In this document: positions 2,563 to 14,113 of the stretch, in pieces
How the letters are laid out: every line of letters starts with the position of its first letter
Position numbering within the stretch: the first letter of the stretch is position 1
IMG/VR virus record: IMGVR_UViG_3300047276_000332
Location: 1 to 20,058 of that record
Direction: 5' to 3' (one strand)
Length of the DNA stretch: 20,058 bases
From: a virus
Made by a program: the position numbers and the translations under genes
Notes under the pieces: model-generated
Told to the model about the DNA's origin: nothing
Databases searched by the model: none
The model's input: the letters and a program-made list of their open reading frames with translations, nothing else

Positions 2563-2693
2563 AATAAAGCTTGACAAATATGTTTTTATATGTTATAATA
2601 GTACACATAAGTACACTAAGGATGTTCTTATAAACATAAAAGAATAAAGCTTTACTTATATTGTTTTGTTATAAACATATAAGACACTAAGGA
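2563..2693 (+). repeat. Tandem duplicated promoter/leader unit
   Basis: Two units both begin with AATAAAGCTT (2563-2572 and 2643-2652) and both end with ACACTAAGGA (2613-2622 and 2684-2693), with similar TATAA-containing sequence in between. The first keeps a perfect promoter; the second has lost the -35 box and is about nine bases shorter, but supplies the TAAGGA ribosome site of the small terminase gene. It looks like an old tandem duplication in which the copies have specialised. Confidence 0.5.
2571..2599 (+). promoter_or_regulatory. Consensus sigma70 promoter for the rightward head genes
   Basis: A perfect TTGACA (2571-2576) and a perfect TATAAT (2594-2599) are separated by exactly 17 bases. 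It faces the small terminase gene about 100 bases downstream, and no terminator lies between. The initial transcribed region (ATAGTACACATAAGT) resembles that of the second promoter at 6872, suggesting a shared leader. Use of host RNA polymerase is inferred from the consensus. Confidence 0.85.
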
Positions 2694-2699
2694 CTTGTA

Positions 2700-3119
2700 A
2701 TGGACATTAAAGAAGCTCTAGAGAACCAGCCAGCCCCTGTTAAACGAGGAAGGGGACGTCCCAAGAAGGGAGAAATTGTAGCAAAGATGCCCAAGAAGAG
2801 GGGGCTTGTAGGCCGTCCTAAGGGCGAACAGAGCATCATCAACGAATATAGGGCTAGAATGTTAGCCTCTCCTAAAAGCTCTAAGGTGTTAGAGAAAATT
2901 TATGAGGCTGCCCTGAATGATGAACATAAAAACCAGAGTGCTGCGTGGAAACTCATTATGGACAGAATGTTGCCCCTTAGCTATTTCGAGAAAAGCAACA
3001 ATGTTGCTGGTAGGGCTAGTGTTAACATCACTATCACTGGTGTTAATGGAGACACCACCATCATTGGAAACGAAGAAGCAGATGATGTCCAATATGTGGA
3101 GAAGAGCAATGAATTTTGA
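2700..3119 (+). CDS. Putative terminase small subunit with AT-hooks
   Basis: A 139-residue basic protein preceded by a TAAGGA ribosome site. Residues 16-24 (RGRGRPKKG) form a canonical AT-hook and residues 35-42 (GLVGRPKG) a second, weaker one, so the N-terminal third is expected to grip the minor groove of AT-rich DNA. Residues 46-97 are helical and carry a conserved-looking KVLEKIYEAALNDEHKNQSA and LIMDRMLPLSYFEK pattern that I associate with small terminase subunits of this phage type. The acidic C-terminal tail follows a short beta-rich part. Position as first gene before TerL supports recognition of the packaging site. The alternative is a general AT-hook DNA-binding protein. It overlaps the next gene by 11 bases. 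Confidence 0.65.
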   Translation: MDIKEALENQPAPVKRGRGRPKKGEIVAKMPKKRGLVGRPKGEQSIINEYRARMLASPKSSKVLEKIYEAALNDEHKNQSAAWKLIMDRMLPLSYFEKSNNVAGRASVNITITGVNGDTTIIGNEEADDVQYVEKSNEF

Positions 3120-3657
3120 TTTGTATAAAGACGCTCTAGGACAACACGAAAGTACAGACAACTACAGCAAGGTGAATAAATATAACTACCTTGGGCGTTA
3201 TCAATTTGGTGCTAGAGATTTGCAAGCTCTTGGAATGGTGAAGAAGGGAACAACACAAGCAGGGCTTAACAAAGATAGTAATTGGCTTGTTGGAAATAAG
3301 AAAGAATTTCTGTCTTCTCCTGAAATGCAGGACGAAGCTCTAAGAAAAGCAACAGAAAGAAACTATTCCTATTTAACAAAGAAGGGCATCATCAATGATG
3401 ACACTTCTCCTGATGAACAAGTGAAGCTTTTGACAGGAGCCCACCTTGTTGGAGGGTGGGGGCTTATTAAGAGCCTAAGGGGAGAAGATGTTAGAGATGC
3501 TAACAGGATGTCTCCTGATGTTTGGGGAGAGAAGGTGAGACAAAGCTATTTGGAAATGCTTCCTAAACAAGCTTCTCCTATGCCAATGCCAGAAGAACCT
3601 TCCTTTGAAAACTTCCAGAATATGTTGTTAGGCAATCCATTGGGCACGGCTCCGTGA
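3109..3657 (+). CDS. Lysozyme-like (transglycosylase-like) protein between the terminase genes
   Basis: The frame is open further upstream inside the small terminase gene, but the ATG at 3109 has a GGAG ribosome site seven bases before it, giving 182 residues. The start DLYKDALGQHESTDNYSKVN, followed by YNYLGRYQFGARDLQALG, matches the ESxxxY...GxYQF pattern of lysozyme-like transglycosylase domains. Glu14 is the likely catalytic acid. AHLVGGWG (111-118) is a second typical element. The last 30 residues (PMPMPEEP...) form a proline-rich tail. No signal peptide or membrane segment is seen. It may be a virion-associated wall hydrolase used at DNA entry. Its place between the two terminase genes is unusual. 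The C-terminal stop overlaps the GTG start of TerL. Confidence 0.65.
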   Translation: MNFDLYKDALGQHESTDNYSKVNKYNYLGRYQFGARDLQALGMVKKGTTQAGLNKDSNWLVGNKKEFLSSPEMQDEALRKATERNYSYLTKKGIINDDTSPDEQVKLLTGAHLVGGWGLIKSLRGEDVRDANRMSPDVWGEKVRQSYLEMLPKQASPMPMPEEPSFENFQNMLLGNPLGTAP

Positions 3658-4904
3658 GTGAGTTTAACATTAAGCTGCTTCCCTGGCAGCAAGAGGTGTG
3701 GGGAGACAAGACAAGGTTTAAGGTGGTGGCTGCTGGGCGTAGAACAGGCAAGAGCAGGCTTGCGGCCTATTTGCTTCTCTTCAATGCCTTACAAGCAGAG
3801 AAAGGCCATGTGTTCTATGTTGCCCCCACACAAGGGCAGGCAAGGGACATTATGTGGCAGACATTGTTGGAGACAGGCCATTCTGTTATAACAGGAAGCC
3901 ATGTTAACAACTTACAGATAAAGCTGGTTAATGGAGCAACCATTTCCCTAAAGGGAGCTGATAGGCCAGAGACAATGCGTGGTGTGTCTCTAAAGTATTT
4001 GGTGATGGATGAATATGCAGACATGAAGCCAGAGGTGTGGGAACAAATCTTACGTCCTGCTCTGGCTGACCAGAAGGGAAGTGCTTTGTTCATTGGAACA
4101 CCAATGGGTCGTAATCACTTCTATGACTTGTTTATGCACGGGAAGGAAGAGGAAGACCCCACCTTCAAGAGTTGGTTGTTCACCAGCTATGACAACCCCC
4201 TGATAGACCCTAATGAAATTGAGGCTGCTAAGAAGAACATGAGCAGCTTTGCTTTTAGGCAGGAGTTTATGGCTTCTTTCGAGGCACAGGGAGGGGAGTT
4301 GTTTAAAGAAGAATGGGTGAAGGTGGACGAAGAAGAGCCTGCTCAGGGAGACTATTACATTGCCATAGACCTTGCTGGCTTTACAGATGAGAGCAAGGCA
4401 AGCAAGAGCAAGAAGCTAGACAATAGTGCAATTTCTGTTGTTAAATGCAATGAAGAGGGATGGTATGTTAAGGACATCATCTATGGCAGATGGAGTGTAG
4501 AAGAGACAGCACAGAAGATATTTAATGCTGTTAAGAAATATGAGCCCCTTGCTGTAGGGATAGAAAAGGGAATTGCCAAGCAAGCTGTTATGCCCTATTT
4601 GTCAGACTTGATGAGAAGAAGGCAGACATTCTTTAGAGTGGAGGAGCTTTCACATGGAAACAAAAAGAAGACAGACCGCATTGTTTGGGCCTTACAAGGG
4701 CGTTTTGAGCATGGACAGGTTGTGCTTAATAAGGGGACATGGAACATGGAGTTTTTGGATGAACTCTTCCAGTTTCCAAACAAGCTTGTGCATGATGACC
4801 TCATTGATTCGTTAAGCTACATTGAACAACTTAACAAGCAAAGCTATGCCCAACACTTTGAAGAAGACGAATATGAACCAATGGACGCTGTTAGCGGCTA
4901 CTAA
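3654..4904 (+). CDS. terL: Terminase large subunit (packaging ATPase and nuclease)
   Basis: TerL drives DNA into the prohead and cuts the concatemer. The 416-residue protein has a Walker A at 26-34 (AAGRRTGKS), a Walker B at 116-120 (LVMDE) and a coupling motif at about 147-150 (IGTP) in the ATPase half. The RNase H-like nuclease half shows three acidic sites: D239 in YIAIDLAG, E304 in VGIEKG and D381/D382 with D385 in HDDLIDS. This order is that of Terminase_6-type large subunits. Translation starts at GTG, overlapping the previous stop as GTGA, with no strong ribosome site, so it is probably coupled. The length is on the short side for large terminases but both domains look complete. Confidence 0.95.
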   Translation: MSEFNIKLLPWQQEVWGDKTRFKVVAAGRRTGKSRLAAYLLLFNALQAEKGHVFYVAPTQGQARDIMWQTLLETGHSVITGSHVNNLQIKLVNGATISLKGADRPETMRGVSLKYLVMDEYADMKPEVWEQILRPALADQKGSALFIGTPMGRNHFYDLFMHGKEEEDPTFKSWLFTSYDNPLIDPNEIEAAKKNMSSFAFRQEFMASFEAQGGELFKEEWVKVDEEEPAQGDYYIAIDLAGFTDESKASKSKKLDNSAISVVKCNEEGWYVKDIIYGRWSVEETAQKIFNAVKKYEPLAVGIEKGIAKQAVMPYLSDLMRRRQTFFRVEELSHGNKKKTDRIVWALQGRFEHGQVVLNKGTWNMEFLDELFQFPNKLVHDDLIDSLSYIEQLNKQSYAQHFEEDEYEPMDAVSGY

Positions 4905-10691: not shown

Positions 10692-11591
10692 ATGGCAATA
10701 ATTTTAGACGGCACAAATGGCATCTCCACACCGGATGTGGAACCAACAGGCTCAACTGTCCCCACCAATGGACTCTATCTCCCTGCTGCGAACTCTGTAG
10801 GAATTGCTACCAATTCAAGTGAGAGGGTTAGGGTTAATAGTTCAGGCAATGTGGGGATTGGTACATCACCAAATAAGCGATTGACTGTTTATTCTGATGA
10901 TGGTTATATCCAAATGCTTAATGCCCAAACTGGTACTGGCAACACAGATGGTTCATTTATTGGAGTTGAAGGTGGGACAACTGCATTACGGATTGTTAAC
11001 CAAGAAAACGATGCAATAAGTTTTCATACGAATGGTTTGGCTAACGAGCGTATGCGTATCGACTCCTCCGGCTACTTGCTTATCAACCAAACATCCAATG
11101 TAACAAGTTCGTATCTCCAGATTAAGGGTGCTCAGCCAGCAATTAGTTGCGAAAGTACATCAACTGGGTCGGTAAGCCAAGTTCTATTCCGCAACCCGAA
11201 CGGACAGGTTGGCAGTATCGGAACAAGCGGGACTTCTACTTCATACAACACATCATCCGATTACCGCCTAAAAGAAAACATTGCACCCATGACAGGTGCG
11301 CTGGCTAAGGTTGCTGCACTCAATCCTGTCACCTACAACTGGAAAGTAGATGGGTCTGCTGGGCAAGGCTTTATTGCCCACGAACTGCAAGCAGTTGTGC
11401 CTGACTGCGTGACCGGTGAAAAAGATGCCGTGGACGCAGAAGGCAACCCACAATACCAAGGCGTAGATACATCATTCTTGGTGGCAACTCTCACGGCGGC
11501 AATCAAGGAGCAGCAAGCCATCATCGAACAGCAATCCCAAGCGATTGCGTCCCTCACCACCCGCATTGAGGCATTGGAGCAACAGCCATGA
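10692..11591 (+). CDS. Tail fibre/spike with C-terminal peptidase S74 chaperone domain
   Basis: The 299-residue protein begins with a GTNGISTPDVEPTG-type attachment module and has beta-structured repeats (SSERVRVNSSGNVGIGT and ANERMRIDSSGYLLINQ), which are typical of triple-stranded beta shafts. The C-terminal third is an intramolecular chaperone of the S74 family: SDYRLKENIAP gives the catalytic Ser189 and Lys194, followed by LAALNPVTYNWK-like and GFIAHELQ (226-233) elements, then a long Gln/Ala coiled coil to the end. Such domains trimerise the fibre and then cut themselves off. The cut is expected just before Ser189. An AAGGA site lies upstream. The stop overlaps the next gene as ATGA. Confidence 0.9.
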   Translation: MAIILDGTNGISTPDVEPTGSTVPTNGLYLPAANSVGIATNSSERVRVNSSGNVGIGTSPNKRLTVYSDDGYIQMLNAQTGTGNTDGSFIGVEGGTTALRIVNQENDAISFHTNGLANERMRIDSSGYLLINQTSNVTSSYLQIKGAQPAISCESTSTGSVSQVLFRNPNGQVGSIGTSGTSTSYNTSSDYRLKENIAPMTGALAKVAALNPVTYNWKVDGSAGQGFIAHELQAVVPDCVTGEKDAVDAEGNPQYQGVDTSFLVATLTAAIKEQQAIIEQQSQAIASLTTRIEALEQQP

Positions 11592-12685
11592 CCATATCAT
11601 TCTCAGGCACTTCGGGGCTAACCTTCCCCGACAACAGCACACAAGCCACAGCAGCAACAGGCTTTGGCTTCAAGAACCGCATCATCAATGGTGCGATGGT
11701 GATTGACCAGCGTAATGCTGGGGCTGCGGTCACTACTGCAAATTCATTTCCAGTAGATAGATTTAAGATTGAGAAAAACTCAGACGACACGTTTTCTGCA
11801 CAACAAGATTCTTCTGCCCCAGTTGGTTTTGTTAACTCAACTAAAATAACAATTACTGCAGCAGACGCTTCTATTGGAAGCACTCAGTATTTTGTAATTG
11901 GCCAGTATATTGAAGGCTACAATGTTGCCGATTTAAACTGGGGTTCAGCAAACGCTAAGACTGTTACTTTGTCTTTTTGGGTTCGTTCAAGTTTAACTGG
12001 CACTTTTGGCGGTTCATTAAGAAATAGTGCTGGAGATAGAAATTATGCTTTTACTTATTCTATTTCTACTGCCGATACTTGGGAACAAAAGTCAGTAATT
12101 ATCGCTGGTGATACATCAGGAACTTGGTTAAAAACCAATGGAACAGGCATTCAACTCTGTTTTAGTTTGGGTGCTGGTTCTAGTCGTGTTGCAACTGCTG
12201 GAAGCTGGGGTTCAGGTGTAATTCTTGGTGCGTCAGGACAAACACAAGTAATTTCTACGCTAAACGCAACCTTCTACATCACAGGCGTACAACTCGAAAA
12301 AGGCAGCACAGCCACCAGCTTCGACTACCGCCCGTATGGTACTGAGTTGGCTTTGTGTCAGAGGTATTATTATCAATTAAAACCCGGTGCAAGTTATCCA
12401 ATTGCTTTGGGATATTGTCGTGCGACTACTCGTATGGACACATATGCTTTCTTTCCAGTAACTATGAGGTCAGCACCAACTGGTTCGGTAGTGAGTGGGA
12501 CAAATTTTTATTATGTGGATTACAGTCAAAGTACAGTAAATATGAATTCTTTTACTATTGACCAAACATATGTTCAAGGTGCAAGACTTATAAACTCTGG
12601 ATTAAGTGGACTTACAGCAGCTTCTGGGGCATCGTTATGGACAAATGATGCCACTGCATCTGTTGGTTTTTCTTCGGAGTTATAA
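11588..12685 (+). CDS. Receptor-binding-type tail protein, 365 aa
   Basis: Starts with TISFSGTSGLTFPDNSTQ, an attachment module similar in rhythm to the preceding fibre. Then FKNRIINGAMVIDQRNAGA and a beta-rich domain resembling a carbohydrate-binding jelly roll follow (about 25-235), ending with the hallmark FYITGVQLEKGSTATSFDYRPYGTELALCQRYY. The last 100 residues (from about 260) form a variable beta-rich C-terminal domain rich in Tyr, Ser and Gly that probably contacts the receptor. No catalytic motif is seen. I regard it as a tail fibre or fibre-tip adhesin. Base composition falls visibly toward AT in the middle of the jelly roll and again in the C-terminal domain, while both motif segments are GC-richer. 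Confidence 0.75.
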   Translation: MTISFSGTSGLTFPDNSTQATAATGFGFKNRIINGAMVIDQRNAGAAVTTANSFPVDRFKIEKNSDDTFSAQQDSSAPVGFVNSTKITITAADASIGSTQYFVIGQYIEGYNVADLNWGSANAKTVTLSFWVRSSLTGTFGGSLRNSAGDRNYAFTYSISTADTWEQKSVIIAGDTSGTWLKTNGTGIQLCFSLGAGSSRVATAGSWGSGVILGASGQTQVISTLNATFYITGVQLEKGSTATSFDYRPYGTELALCQRYYYQLKPGASYPIALGYCRATTRMDTYAFFPVTMRSAPTGSVVSGTNFYYVDYSQSTVNMNSFTIDQTYVQGARLINSGLSGLTAASGASLWTNDATASVGFSSEL

Positions 12686-12687
12686 AA

Positions 12688-12906
12688 ATGTACAAACTAA
12701 TAAAAGACTCAGTTTCTAACAAATTAACAGCAATTCAGCGTCTATCTGACAACGCATTCATCCCTTTTGACCCTGCCAACACGGATGCCAAAGAGTTTGC
12801 TAAGTGGCTTCAAGAGGGAAACTTACCAGAGCCAGCAGAAGAAGGCGGCACAGTAACTCAGGAATGGGTTGCTGAAACAATAGCAAAGCTGTTGCCAAAT
12901 GGTTAA
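12688..12906 (+). CDS. Small fibre-associated protein, 72 aa
   Basis: Begins two bases after the preceding fibre stop. The product (YKLIKDSVSNKLTAIQRLSD, then AFIPFDPANTDAKEFAKWLQ, EGNLPEPAEE) belongs to a type of small protein found beside environmental phage fibre genes, with the xFIPFDPANTD...WLxEGNxPEPA signature. Its role is not known to me; a fibre chaperone or capping protein is a reasonable guess. The C-terminal KWLQEGNLPEPAEE stretch is repeated, with changes, at the end of the HNH gene that follows. The stop overlaps the HNH start by eight bases. No strong ribosome site is seen (only the two-base gap), so it is probably coupled. Confidence 0.75.
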   Translation: MYKLIKDSVSNKLTAIQRLSDNAFIPFDPANTDAKEFAKWLQEGNLPEPAEEGGTVTQEWVAETIAKLLPNG

Positions 12907-13450
12907 AAGTCAACATCATTACAGACGTTATCAGCGATTCATGGATGCCTTAAAAGGTCAATCCGTGAATGGCTATTGTGAGGTGCATCACATCGTGCCA
13001 CGCAGTCTTGGCGGCTCTAATGACAAAGACAACTTAATCAGTTTGACACCACGACAACACTACATTGCACATTGGATGCTTTGGAAGGCTTGTGGTGGTG
13101 TCGCAGGTCGCTCTTTCTTTATGATGAGCAACCTTGGCAAATACGGCAAAGTCAACTCTACAACGTATGCACAGGCAAGAGAAAACTATTCTGAACAAGT
13201 CAAGAAGCAAATGGCTGAACGACCAAACAGACCAGCTTTCACGCCAGAGCATCGTGAAAAACTGAGACAGGCAAAACTTGGAACAAAACTTTCAGCCGAG
13301 ACAAGATGCAAGGTTGGAAATGCACAAAGGGGTAGAAAATTGTCAGACGAAACTAAACGCAGAATTTCTGTAACTAAAAAACAAGCCTATCTGAAATGGC
13401 TGGAAGAAGGCAACACGCCTGAACCTGCTGACGAGGTAAGCAATGGATAA
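12899..13450 (+). CDS. HNH endonuclease with NUMOD3 motifs (probable homing endonuclease)
   Basis: A 183-residue free-standing nuclease. The HNH core is clear: YCEVHHIVPRSLGGSNDKDN (26-45) with H30/H31 and N45, then LTPRQHYIAHWML with H54 and H58. Residues 114-158 carry two NUMOD3-like DNA-binding repeats (FTPEHREKLRQAKLG and LSDETKRRISVTKKQ). The last 20 residues (KQAYLKWLEEGNTPEPADEV, then SNG) are not nuclease-like; they match the tail of the preceding 72-residue protein. This suggests that the endonuclease invaded, or recombined with, a copy of that small gene and kept its 3' end in frame. It is translationally coupled on both sides and probably mobile. Confidence 0.9.
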   Translation: MVKSQHHYRRYQRFMDALKGQSVNGYCEVHHIVPRSLGGSNDKDNLISLTPRQHYIAHWMLWKACGGVAGRSFFMMSNLGKYGKVNSTTYAQARENYSEQVKKQMAERPNRPAFTPEHREKLRQAKLGTKLSAETRCKVGNAQRGRKLSDETKRRISVTKKQAYLKWLEEGNTPEPADEVSNG

Positions 13451-13556
13451 CCAAACCTTCAAAAAAGACATTGCTGAAGGCAAGCCCCTGCAAGACGCAG
13501 ATGGTAACGAGATGACCGCAGCGGCGGCTCAAGAATTTATGAGGAACCTACCATGA
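13443..13556 (+). CDS. Putative small protein, 37 aa, between HNH and fibre gene
   Basis: The ATG lies inside the last codons of the HNH gene (eight-base overlap) and the TGA overlaps the next gene's start as ATGA, so the frame fills the gap exactly. The product (MDNQTFKKDIAEGKPLQDAD, then GNEMTAAAAQEFMRNLP) is soluble and helical. No ribosome site other than coupling is evident. The junction with the HNH stop (AATGGATAA) parallels that between the 72-residue gene and the HNH gene (AATGGTTAA). It may be a small fibre-associated protein; the function is unknown. Confidence 0.55.
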   Translation: MDNQTFKKDIAEGKPLQDADGNEMTAAAAQEFMRNLP

Positions 13557-14113
13557 GCAAAGTATCCATACAGGGTAACGCCAGCGGCACAGGCACATTC
13601 ACCATTGCCGCGCCGAACAGCAACAGCAATCAGACGCTGACGCTGCCTGATCAAACAGGAACCGTAATAACAACGGCAGGTGTACCAAAAGCAGCGTTGC
13701 CTACCGGGAGTGTGTTGCAGGTGGTGAGTGCTACTGATGCAACAGGAAGAAGCACAACATCCACAAGTTTTGTAACAGCATCAAATACCTTATCAGTAAC
13801 AATTACTCCAACATCTACATCAAGCAAAATATTTGTTGTAGCAAATTCAAGTTGTGAACACAATACAACAAATACTTACATGGTGTTTACTATTTTTAGA
13901 GGGGCAACAAATTTAGGTAATGGGCAAGGTGGAAATATTCTTAGAGTTAGTAGCACACAAAATATTTATCCTATGGCGTTATCTTTTTTGGATTCACCAA
14001 ATTCAACATCAGCTTTAACATATCAAGTTTATTTCAAAACAGATGCTGGTCAAGCAACTTTAAATAGTGCAAATTGTTTAGCAACAATCACAGCCTTTGA
14101 GATTGCGGGGTAA
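13553..14113 (+). CDS. Short tail fibre/receptor-binding protein, 186 aa
   Basis: The N-terminal 45 residues (SIQGNASGTGTFTIAAPNSN and QTLTLPDQTGTVITT) are a conserved fibre attachment module. This is followed by LPTGSVLQVVSATD, a frequent fibre linker, and then a beta-sandwich-like C-terminal domain (TFVTAS..., SSKIFVVANSSCEHNTTNTY to ITAFEIAG). The pattern resembles phage tip proteins that bind saccharides. The first 170 bases are GC-rich and the rest is AT-rich with different codons, so the tip domain may have been exchanged. An upstream GAGG site and ATGA overlap support the start. No enzymatic residues are seen. Confidence 0.75.
   Translation: MSKVSIQGNASGTGTFTIAAPNSNSNQTLTLPDQTGTVITTAGVPKAALPTGSVLQVVSATDATGRSTTSTSFVTASNTLSVTITPTSTSSKIFVVANSSCEHNTTNTYMVFTIFRGATNLGNGQGGNILRVSSTQNIYPMALSFLDSPNSTSALTYQVYFKTDAGQATLNSANCLATITAFEIAG

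Follow-up and report, generated by a model that had tools for sequence, protein, structure and literature searches.

The window analysed here is a 20,058-nt stretch of viral DNA (IMG/VR record IMGVR_UViG_3300047276_000332) in which a tail fibre gene is followed by a small gene, an HNH endonuclease gene and a 37-aa open reading frame (ORF). Three small-gene 3' ends, designated C1, C2 and C3, lie in a row in this region. The features are listed below, where L followed by a number denotes another viral locus used for comparison.

11588-12685, + strand: tail fibre gene of 365 aa that precedes the invaded small gene and matches the phrog_4492 tail fibre family (E=1e-52); its counterpart in L188 lies at 2691-3794
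12688-12906, + strand: 72-aa ORF, a hybrid small gene made up of a 5' half and C1
12688-12786, + strand: native 5' half of the small gene (MYKLI...PFDPANTD, 33 codons), 79.8% identical in DNA over 98 nt to the uninterrupted gene of L039
12787-12906, + strand: C1, a foreign replacement 3' end of the small gene (AKEFAKWLQEGNLPEPAEEGGTVTQEWVAETIAKLLPNG, stop), with 88-94% DNA identity only in nuclease-bearing relatives and in the nuclease-free allele L030
12899-13450, + strand: HNH homing endonuclease ORF (183 aa; core 12899-13381, HNH motif at about 12980-13072), assigned by Pfam and phrog_655
13382-13450, + strand: C2, a displaced small-gene 3' end fused to the nuclease (QAYLKWLEEGNTPEPADEVSNG, stop), assigned by identity to L103 and a profile match (E=1e-8)
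13443-13556, + strand: 37-aa ORF, which contains C3 at 13450-13556 ((M)DNQTFKKDIAEGKPLQDADGNEMTAAAAQEFMRNLP, stop), the original small-gene 3' end of this lineage
12787-13449, + strand: whole insert relative to L188 (663 nt), from the colinear comparison with that locus
13449-13454, + strand: C2/C3 junction, with a 5-nt microhomology (ACCAA) common to L103-like and L188-like sequences
13553-14113, + strand: next gene, which overlaps the end of C3 by ATGA as in L188; the 20-nt context ACCTACCATGAGCAAAGTAT is identical in the window and L188

Two further observations concern the neighbouring genes. The fibre protein encoded at 10692-11591 includes a Peptidase_S74 intramolecular chaperone domain (E=1.5e-14). 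At 13705-14113, the sequence past 13727 diverges from L188 and resembles L186 and L187 (83-84% DNA identity), which is, judged from these identities, a module switch inside one gene.

The small gene and the nuclease behind it

In its uninterrupted form, the small gene comprises about 50-60 codons and is found directly 3' of a fibre gene in more than 70 nuclease-free viral loci. In these loci its product has the consensus ...IPFDPANTDYQ(A/E)YLKWLxEGNTPxPADE, and the start of the next gene is often overlapped. It is common for a phage to have several small genes, each behind its own fibre gene, and this constant position suggests that the small protein may be a fibre assembly partner. The small protein is predicted to form a three-stranded sheet with a single helix (residues 32-42) after it (mean pLDDT 91); a Foldseek search of the PDB returned no match better than E=0.2, and Pfam contains no family for this protein.

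The product of the nuclease ORF matches the Pfam HNH family above the curated cut-off (E=1.5e-6) and the homing endonuclease family phrog_655 over residues 4-162 (E=9e-41), and a NUMOD3 match (E=0.018) falls below the curated cut-off. Residues H30, H31, N45 and H54 are invariant in 14 relatives, and identity to T4 MobE is approximately 36%. In the genome collection, only distant HNH relatives were found, with at most 40% identity over a long stretch. The nuclease is under strong purifying selection, with a dN/dS of about 0.02-0.08 between close relatives; the ratio for C1 is about 0.1-0.3, and for C2 synonymous changes are saturated between the sequences compared. In the predicted model of the nuclease, one helix (residues 150-169) connects the NUMOD3 region with the tail; confidence is low at the end.

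The initial annotation had pointed out that the 72-aa and 183-aa proteins share a C-terminal tail whose DNA differs mostly at third positions, and this similarity is real. The shared stretch reads FAKWLQEGNLPEPAEE in the small protein (encoded at 12796-12843) and YLKWLEEGNTPEPADE in the nuclease (encoded at 13388-13435); the repeats are 62.5% identical in DNA, and 12 of the 18 differences are at third codon positions. When the nuclease is used as a query, the small gene is recovered within the window (E=3.1e-4), and a profile built only from uninterrupted small genes matches the nuclease tail through profile positions 32-53 (E=1e-8). Matches to PHROG 20370, a family that was built independently, include the small gene (E=5e-11) as well as nuclease residues 162-178 (E=0.008). 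By these matches, the resemblance is not due to chance, and the nuclease tail is a homologue of the small gene's 3' half; in many phages this gene lies behind fibre genes. The tail motif occurs in considerably more than 100 small fibre-associated genes, and about 85 more distant HNH relatives are without a convincing tail repeat, L135 being the exception.

The overlapping start codons are also as first described (AATGGTTAA, with the ATG at 12899, and AATGGATAA, with the ATG at 13443). Two Asn-Gly-stop ends had been reported as a shared feature of the two proteins, and both are present, yet they are separate: the upstream one is a feature of C1 in this clade, and the downstream one is native to C2, because nuclease-free L103 ends in PADEVSNG with the same ATG overlap. 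The 37-aa ORF at 13443-13556, which had been included in the annotated span without discussion, is a third copy of the small-gene end.

An empty site and the displaced gene ends

L188 is colinear gene for gene with this part of the window, is nuclease-free and has one intact small gene ending ...PANTDYQTFKKDIAEGKPLQDADGNEMTAEAAQEFMRNLP. Occupied and empty alleles of one site, represented by the window and L188, therefore exist among related phages. C3 is identical to the intact small-gene end of L188 (3898-4004) at 106 of 107 nt; therefore, the single gene of L188 corresponds to the 5' half in the window (12688-12786) plus C3 (13450-13556), with 663 nt between them. A nuclease-free relative with the small gene intact or duplicated at the same place had been named at the outset as something to look for: L188 is the intact form, and no adjacent pair of small genes was found among 145 distinct copies.

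The counterpart of C2 is the gene end of nuclease-free L103, to which it is identical at 61 of 73 nt in an alignment that continues past the stop codon to 13454; C2 and the ATGGATAACCAA that follows it match L103, whose next gene starts MDNQQ. Both C2 (TAC^CAAGCC) and C3 (TAC^CAAACC) start at small-gene codon 34/35 (GACTAC^CAA). The fibre tip and the 5' half differ between L188 and the window, so more than the 663-nt insert has been exchanged or has diverged, and fibre regions are mosaic in this comparison. An assembly artefact was considered and is unlikely, as the same arrangement occurs in many independent contigs.

The arrangement recurs across many phages. In about 20 close relatives sampled for the state of the tail, the displaced end has met different fates:

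Fused to the nuclease: the window, L003, L004, L008, L009, L010, L011, L013, L019, L022, L023
Shortened: L006, L012, L014, L016, L021, L112
A separate mini-ORF starting from the nuclease stop: L028 (MNQEYLKWLEAGNQPEPADEQ), L033 (MNNYAEYLKWLAEGNTPLPSD)
Lost: L017, L018

The displaced ends of L004, L014, L019 and L021 align past the stop codon into the next gene with nuclease-free L063, L041, L043 and L069 (67-80%), and the separate tail of L033 aligns with L056 at 79% over 416 nt. Since these ends align with nuclease-free phages through the stop, and since they are shortened, detached or lost elsewhere, the displaced end is native to the host phage and dispensable to the nuclease. In L028 (4210-4866) and L033 (4201-4860), the nucleases end in a common zinc-finger-like segment (CPHC..VKDHGGAKRWHFDRCKER) that replaces the fused tail, which suggests an exchanged DNA-binding end. 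Behind the window-type nuclease of L112, a fibre-like N-terminus (MSLVLSGNSGSLTVD...) at 704-1282 runs into a domain that looks, by eye, like an HNH/AP2-type domain and is possibly another nuclease insertion.

Segments that travel with the nuclease

Across 19 carriers, protein distances of the nuclease core correlate with those of C1 (r=0.72, p=1e-4) and not with those of the 5' half (r=0.12, p=0.12); for the fused tail (C2), compared in the 13 carriers in which it is usable, r is -0.04 (p=0.57). In the five closest carriers, mean amino acid identity is 58% for the 5' half, 92% for C1 and 96% for the nuclease core. C1 co-travels with the nuclease, the 5' half and C2 do not, and both flanks have recombined. 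The nuclease tail did not originate from the gene in front; it is the 3' end of that gene, C1, that arrived together with the nuclease. Simple linkage over 120 nt could partly account for this tracking, and in the L008 group and the L022/L023 clades the C1 types are closer to native ends and the replaced segment is less sharply defined.

A DNA pattern scan of the viral collection for C1 returned 16 stretches, and the nuclease follows in all of them except two distinct alleles. In one (L282/L287), C1 is joined to a native-end remnant (C1-KLIP-AEGNQPLPADEPTE); in the other (L030/L281), C1 has a different ending. These alleles are best read as cases of nuclease loss, with L282/L287 as a candidate loss scar. 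They could instead be sources of C1, a reading that is weaker for L282 because it also carries the tail remnant.

A homing model, its alternatives and known systems

Taken together, the locus is very probably occupied by a homing endonuclease cassette that gives the invaded gene a 3' end again, in the manner of the "gene hybrids" formed by mobile ORFs (mORFs) in fungal mitochondria. The mobile unit would consist of C1, the replacement small-gene 3' end, together with the HNH nuclease, and its entry point would be between small-gene codons 34 and 35 (GACTAC^CAA). A putative site-specific cut of the native gene at this position could be followed by break repair in which C1 and the nuclease are copied in, and the native 5' half would thereby be joined in frame to C1. 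As this joint is in frame, a whole hybrid small protein should still be made, and it may well function. The joint is predicted to coincide with the start of the single C-terminal helix, and because C1 encodes this helix with different codons, the carrier should no longer present an uncut site and would be immune. The recipient's own 3' end would be left behind the nuclease, usually fused in frame, so that neither the native stop codon nor the start of the next gene that overlaps it is lost.

The history of the window would comprise at least two such steps. The cassette would first have displaced C2 in an L103-like phage; at a later step it would have entered an L188-like phage at the same site, joining at the 5-nt microhomology ACCAA and displacing C3. 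On the alignments to L103 and L188, this is the simplest history. Among 78 native genes, third-position conservation at the native site GACTACCAA is 79-90%, compared with about 38-76% at most other variable third positions; this conservation is modest, and the pattern used for collection fixed the first two bases of each codon. Such constancy fits homing at this site and does not prove it.

According to an alternative put forward in the initial annotation, the small gene was once present as a tandem pair; the nuclease would have invaded one member and remained attached to the 3' end of the second. The chimera itself stands, as the nuclease invaded a small gene, is fused in frame to a small-gene 3' end and has kept the start overlaps. 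The tandem copy does not, and this origin is very unlikely: although three small-gene 3' ends lie in a row and many phages possess more than one small gene, with a separate fibre gene in front of each, there are no pairs within 200 nt among 207 full-length small genes (145 distinct), no remnant of a second 5' half precedes the nuclease, and colinear L188 has a single copy here. Furthermore, the non-native end sits on the front gene and not on the nuclease tail. It is also very unlikely that an ordinary intergenic, free-standing HNH gene was moved by homologous recombination in the flanking fibre and small-gene sequence and gained its tail by chance read-through after stop loss. Free-standing phage endonucleases are often located between genes, with flanks carried by co-conversion (PMC2988022), and the fibre regions are mosaic here. 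However, relative to L188 the insert is inside the gene rather than beside it, C1 is replaced in step with the nuclease, and the displaced 3' half persists in L028 and L033 as an ORF of its own, which makes the 3' half behind the nuclease, rather than stop loss, the feature in common. A third proposal, that the fused tail was selected because it gives the nuclease a new function such as fibre-partner binding or a longer DNA-binding helix, is unlikely. While the tail is in frame in most carriers and the predicted helix (150-169) would continue into it from the NUMOD3 region, with low confidence at the end, about half of the carriers have a truncated or detached tail or none at all, with the nuclease otherwise intact, and the tail sequence varies with the host phage, not with the nuclease.

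The cassette model has its closest parallel in mitochondria, where mobile ORFs form gene hybrids in atp6 of Allomyces macrogynus and in atp6, atp9, cox2 and nad3 of Glomus sp. (PMC3630166). In both settings, a foreign in-frame C-terminus comes from the endonuclease ORF and the native C-terminus is displaced downstream; the displaced native C-terminus resembles uninterrupted relatives more than the foreign one does. In the window, the foreign 3' end follows in frame after PANTD and the native end is displaced, with C3 matching L188 and C2 resembling L103. The fungal mORFs are mitochondrial LAGLIDADG or GIY-YIG elements, whereas the element described here is an HNH protein of tailed phages that is usually fused in frame to the displaced end, and a second displaced end is stacked behind it. 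By analogy, the window element would have the same architecture as mORF hybrids, and likely the same mode, without being a member by descent.

Phage systems offer partial likenesses. T4 MobE and other free-standing HNH endonucleases (phrog_655) belong to the same broad HNH family, and their start codon likewise overlaps the gene in front, but MobE lies between nrdA and nrdB, with no replaced or displaced gene end described (PMC2988022). In Aeromonas phage Aeh1, MobE is an HNH homing endonuclease inside a phage protein gene, nrdA, whose two halves are both required and reassemble (PMC2988022); here, in contrast, the upstream half acquires an entire new end, and the former one remains as a leftover. 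The hybrid small protein covers the full small-protein length, and this, together with the shortening or loss of the displaced end in several carriers, argues against both parts being needed for the host protein. Homing endonuclease genes (HEGs) of ICP1 and other phages at exchange boundaries are similarly near important genes, with mosaic flanks and HEG domain swaps; in the parts of that account considered, they are of the T5orf172 and AP2-HNH families, in islands of more than 10 kb, and restoration of an invaded gene end was not found (PMC10448857). The open-access literature yielded no phage example of a replaced gene end, and in the literature found this architecture is otherwise described only from fungal mitochondria.

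The cassette would provide a phage parallel to mitochondrial gene hybrids, in which a selfish nuclease, needing neither intron nor intein, can reside within a protein-coding sequence of a compact phage by bringing a spare gene end. With this end supplied, the gene would survive and the cut site would be lost. Like fossils, the leftover ends would record past transfers, and their sequences may reveal donors and direction. The target adjoins fibre genes, where exchange alters host range. With the empty-site allele, the homing model can be tested directly.

A survey of 109 distinct HNH sequences revealed end duplication in the close family beside the small gene and in few others; some weak matches (e.g., L134/L238, L258, L281 and L182) appear chance-like or unexplained and are not claimed. 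It is conceivable, though somewhat less than an even prospect, that phages contain a general class of end-restoring homing elements with more than one origin in unrelated structural genes (the small gene and the LamG-like fibre gene of L135), whose stacked ends record the order of hosts and which drive the exchange of receptor-binding modules. In L135 (same contig as L369), a distant HNH gene at 2977-3666 (approximately 35% identity) overlaps the end of a LamG-like fibre gene. Its product ends in NCTKSINAQEYD, repeating the LCTKSLNEQEYD of the fibre gene (CTKSINAQEYD versus CTKSLNEQEYD), and the HNH-free relatives of this fibre gene in L371 and L372 end in LCTSNINAQT. Based on about 11 residues at one locus, this is likely a second, independent gene-end duplication. 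An HNH gene at 1832-2461 of L375 occupies the same place after the same fibre family, with a tail that is not repeated.
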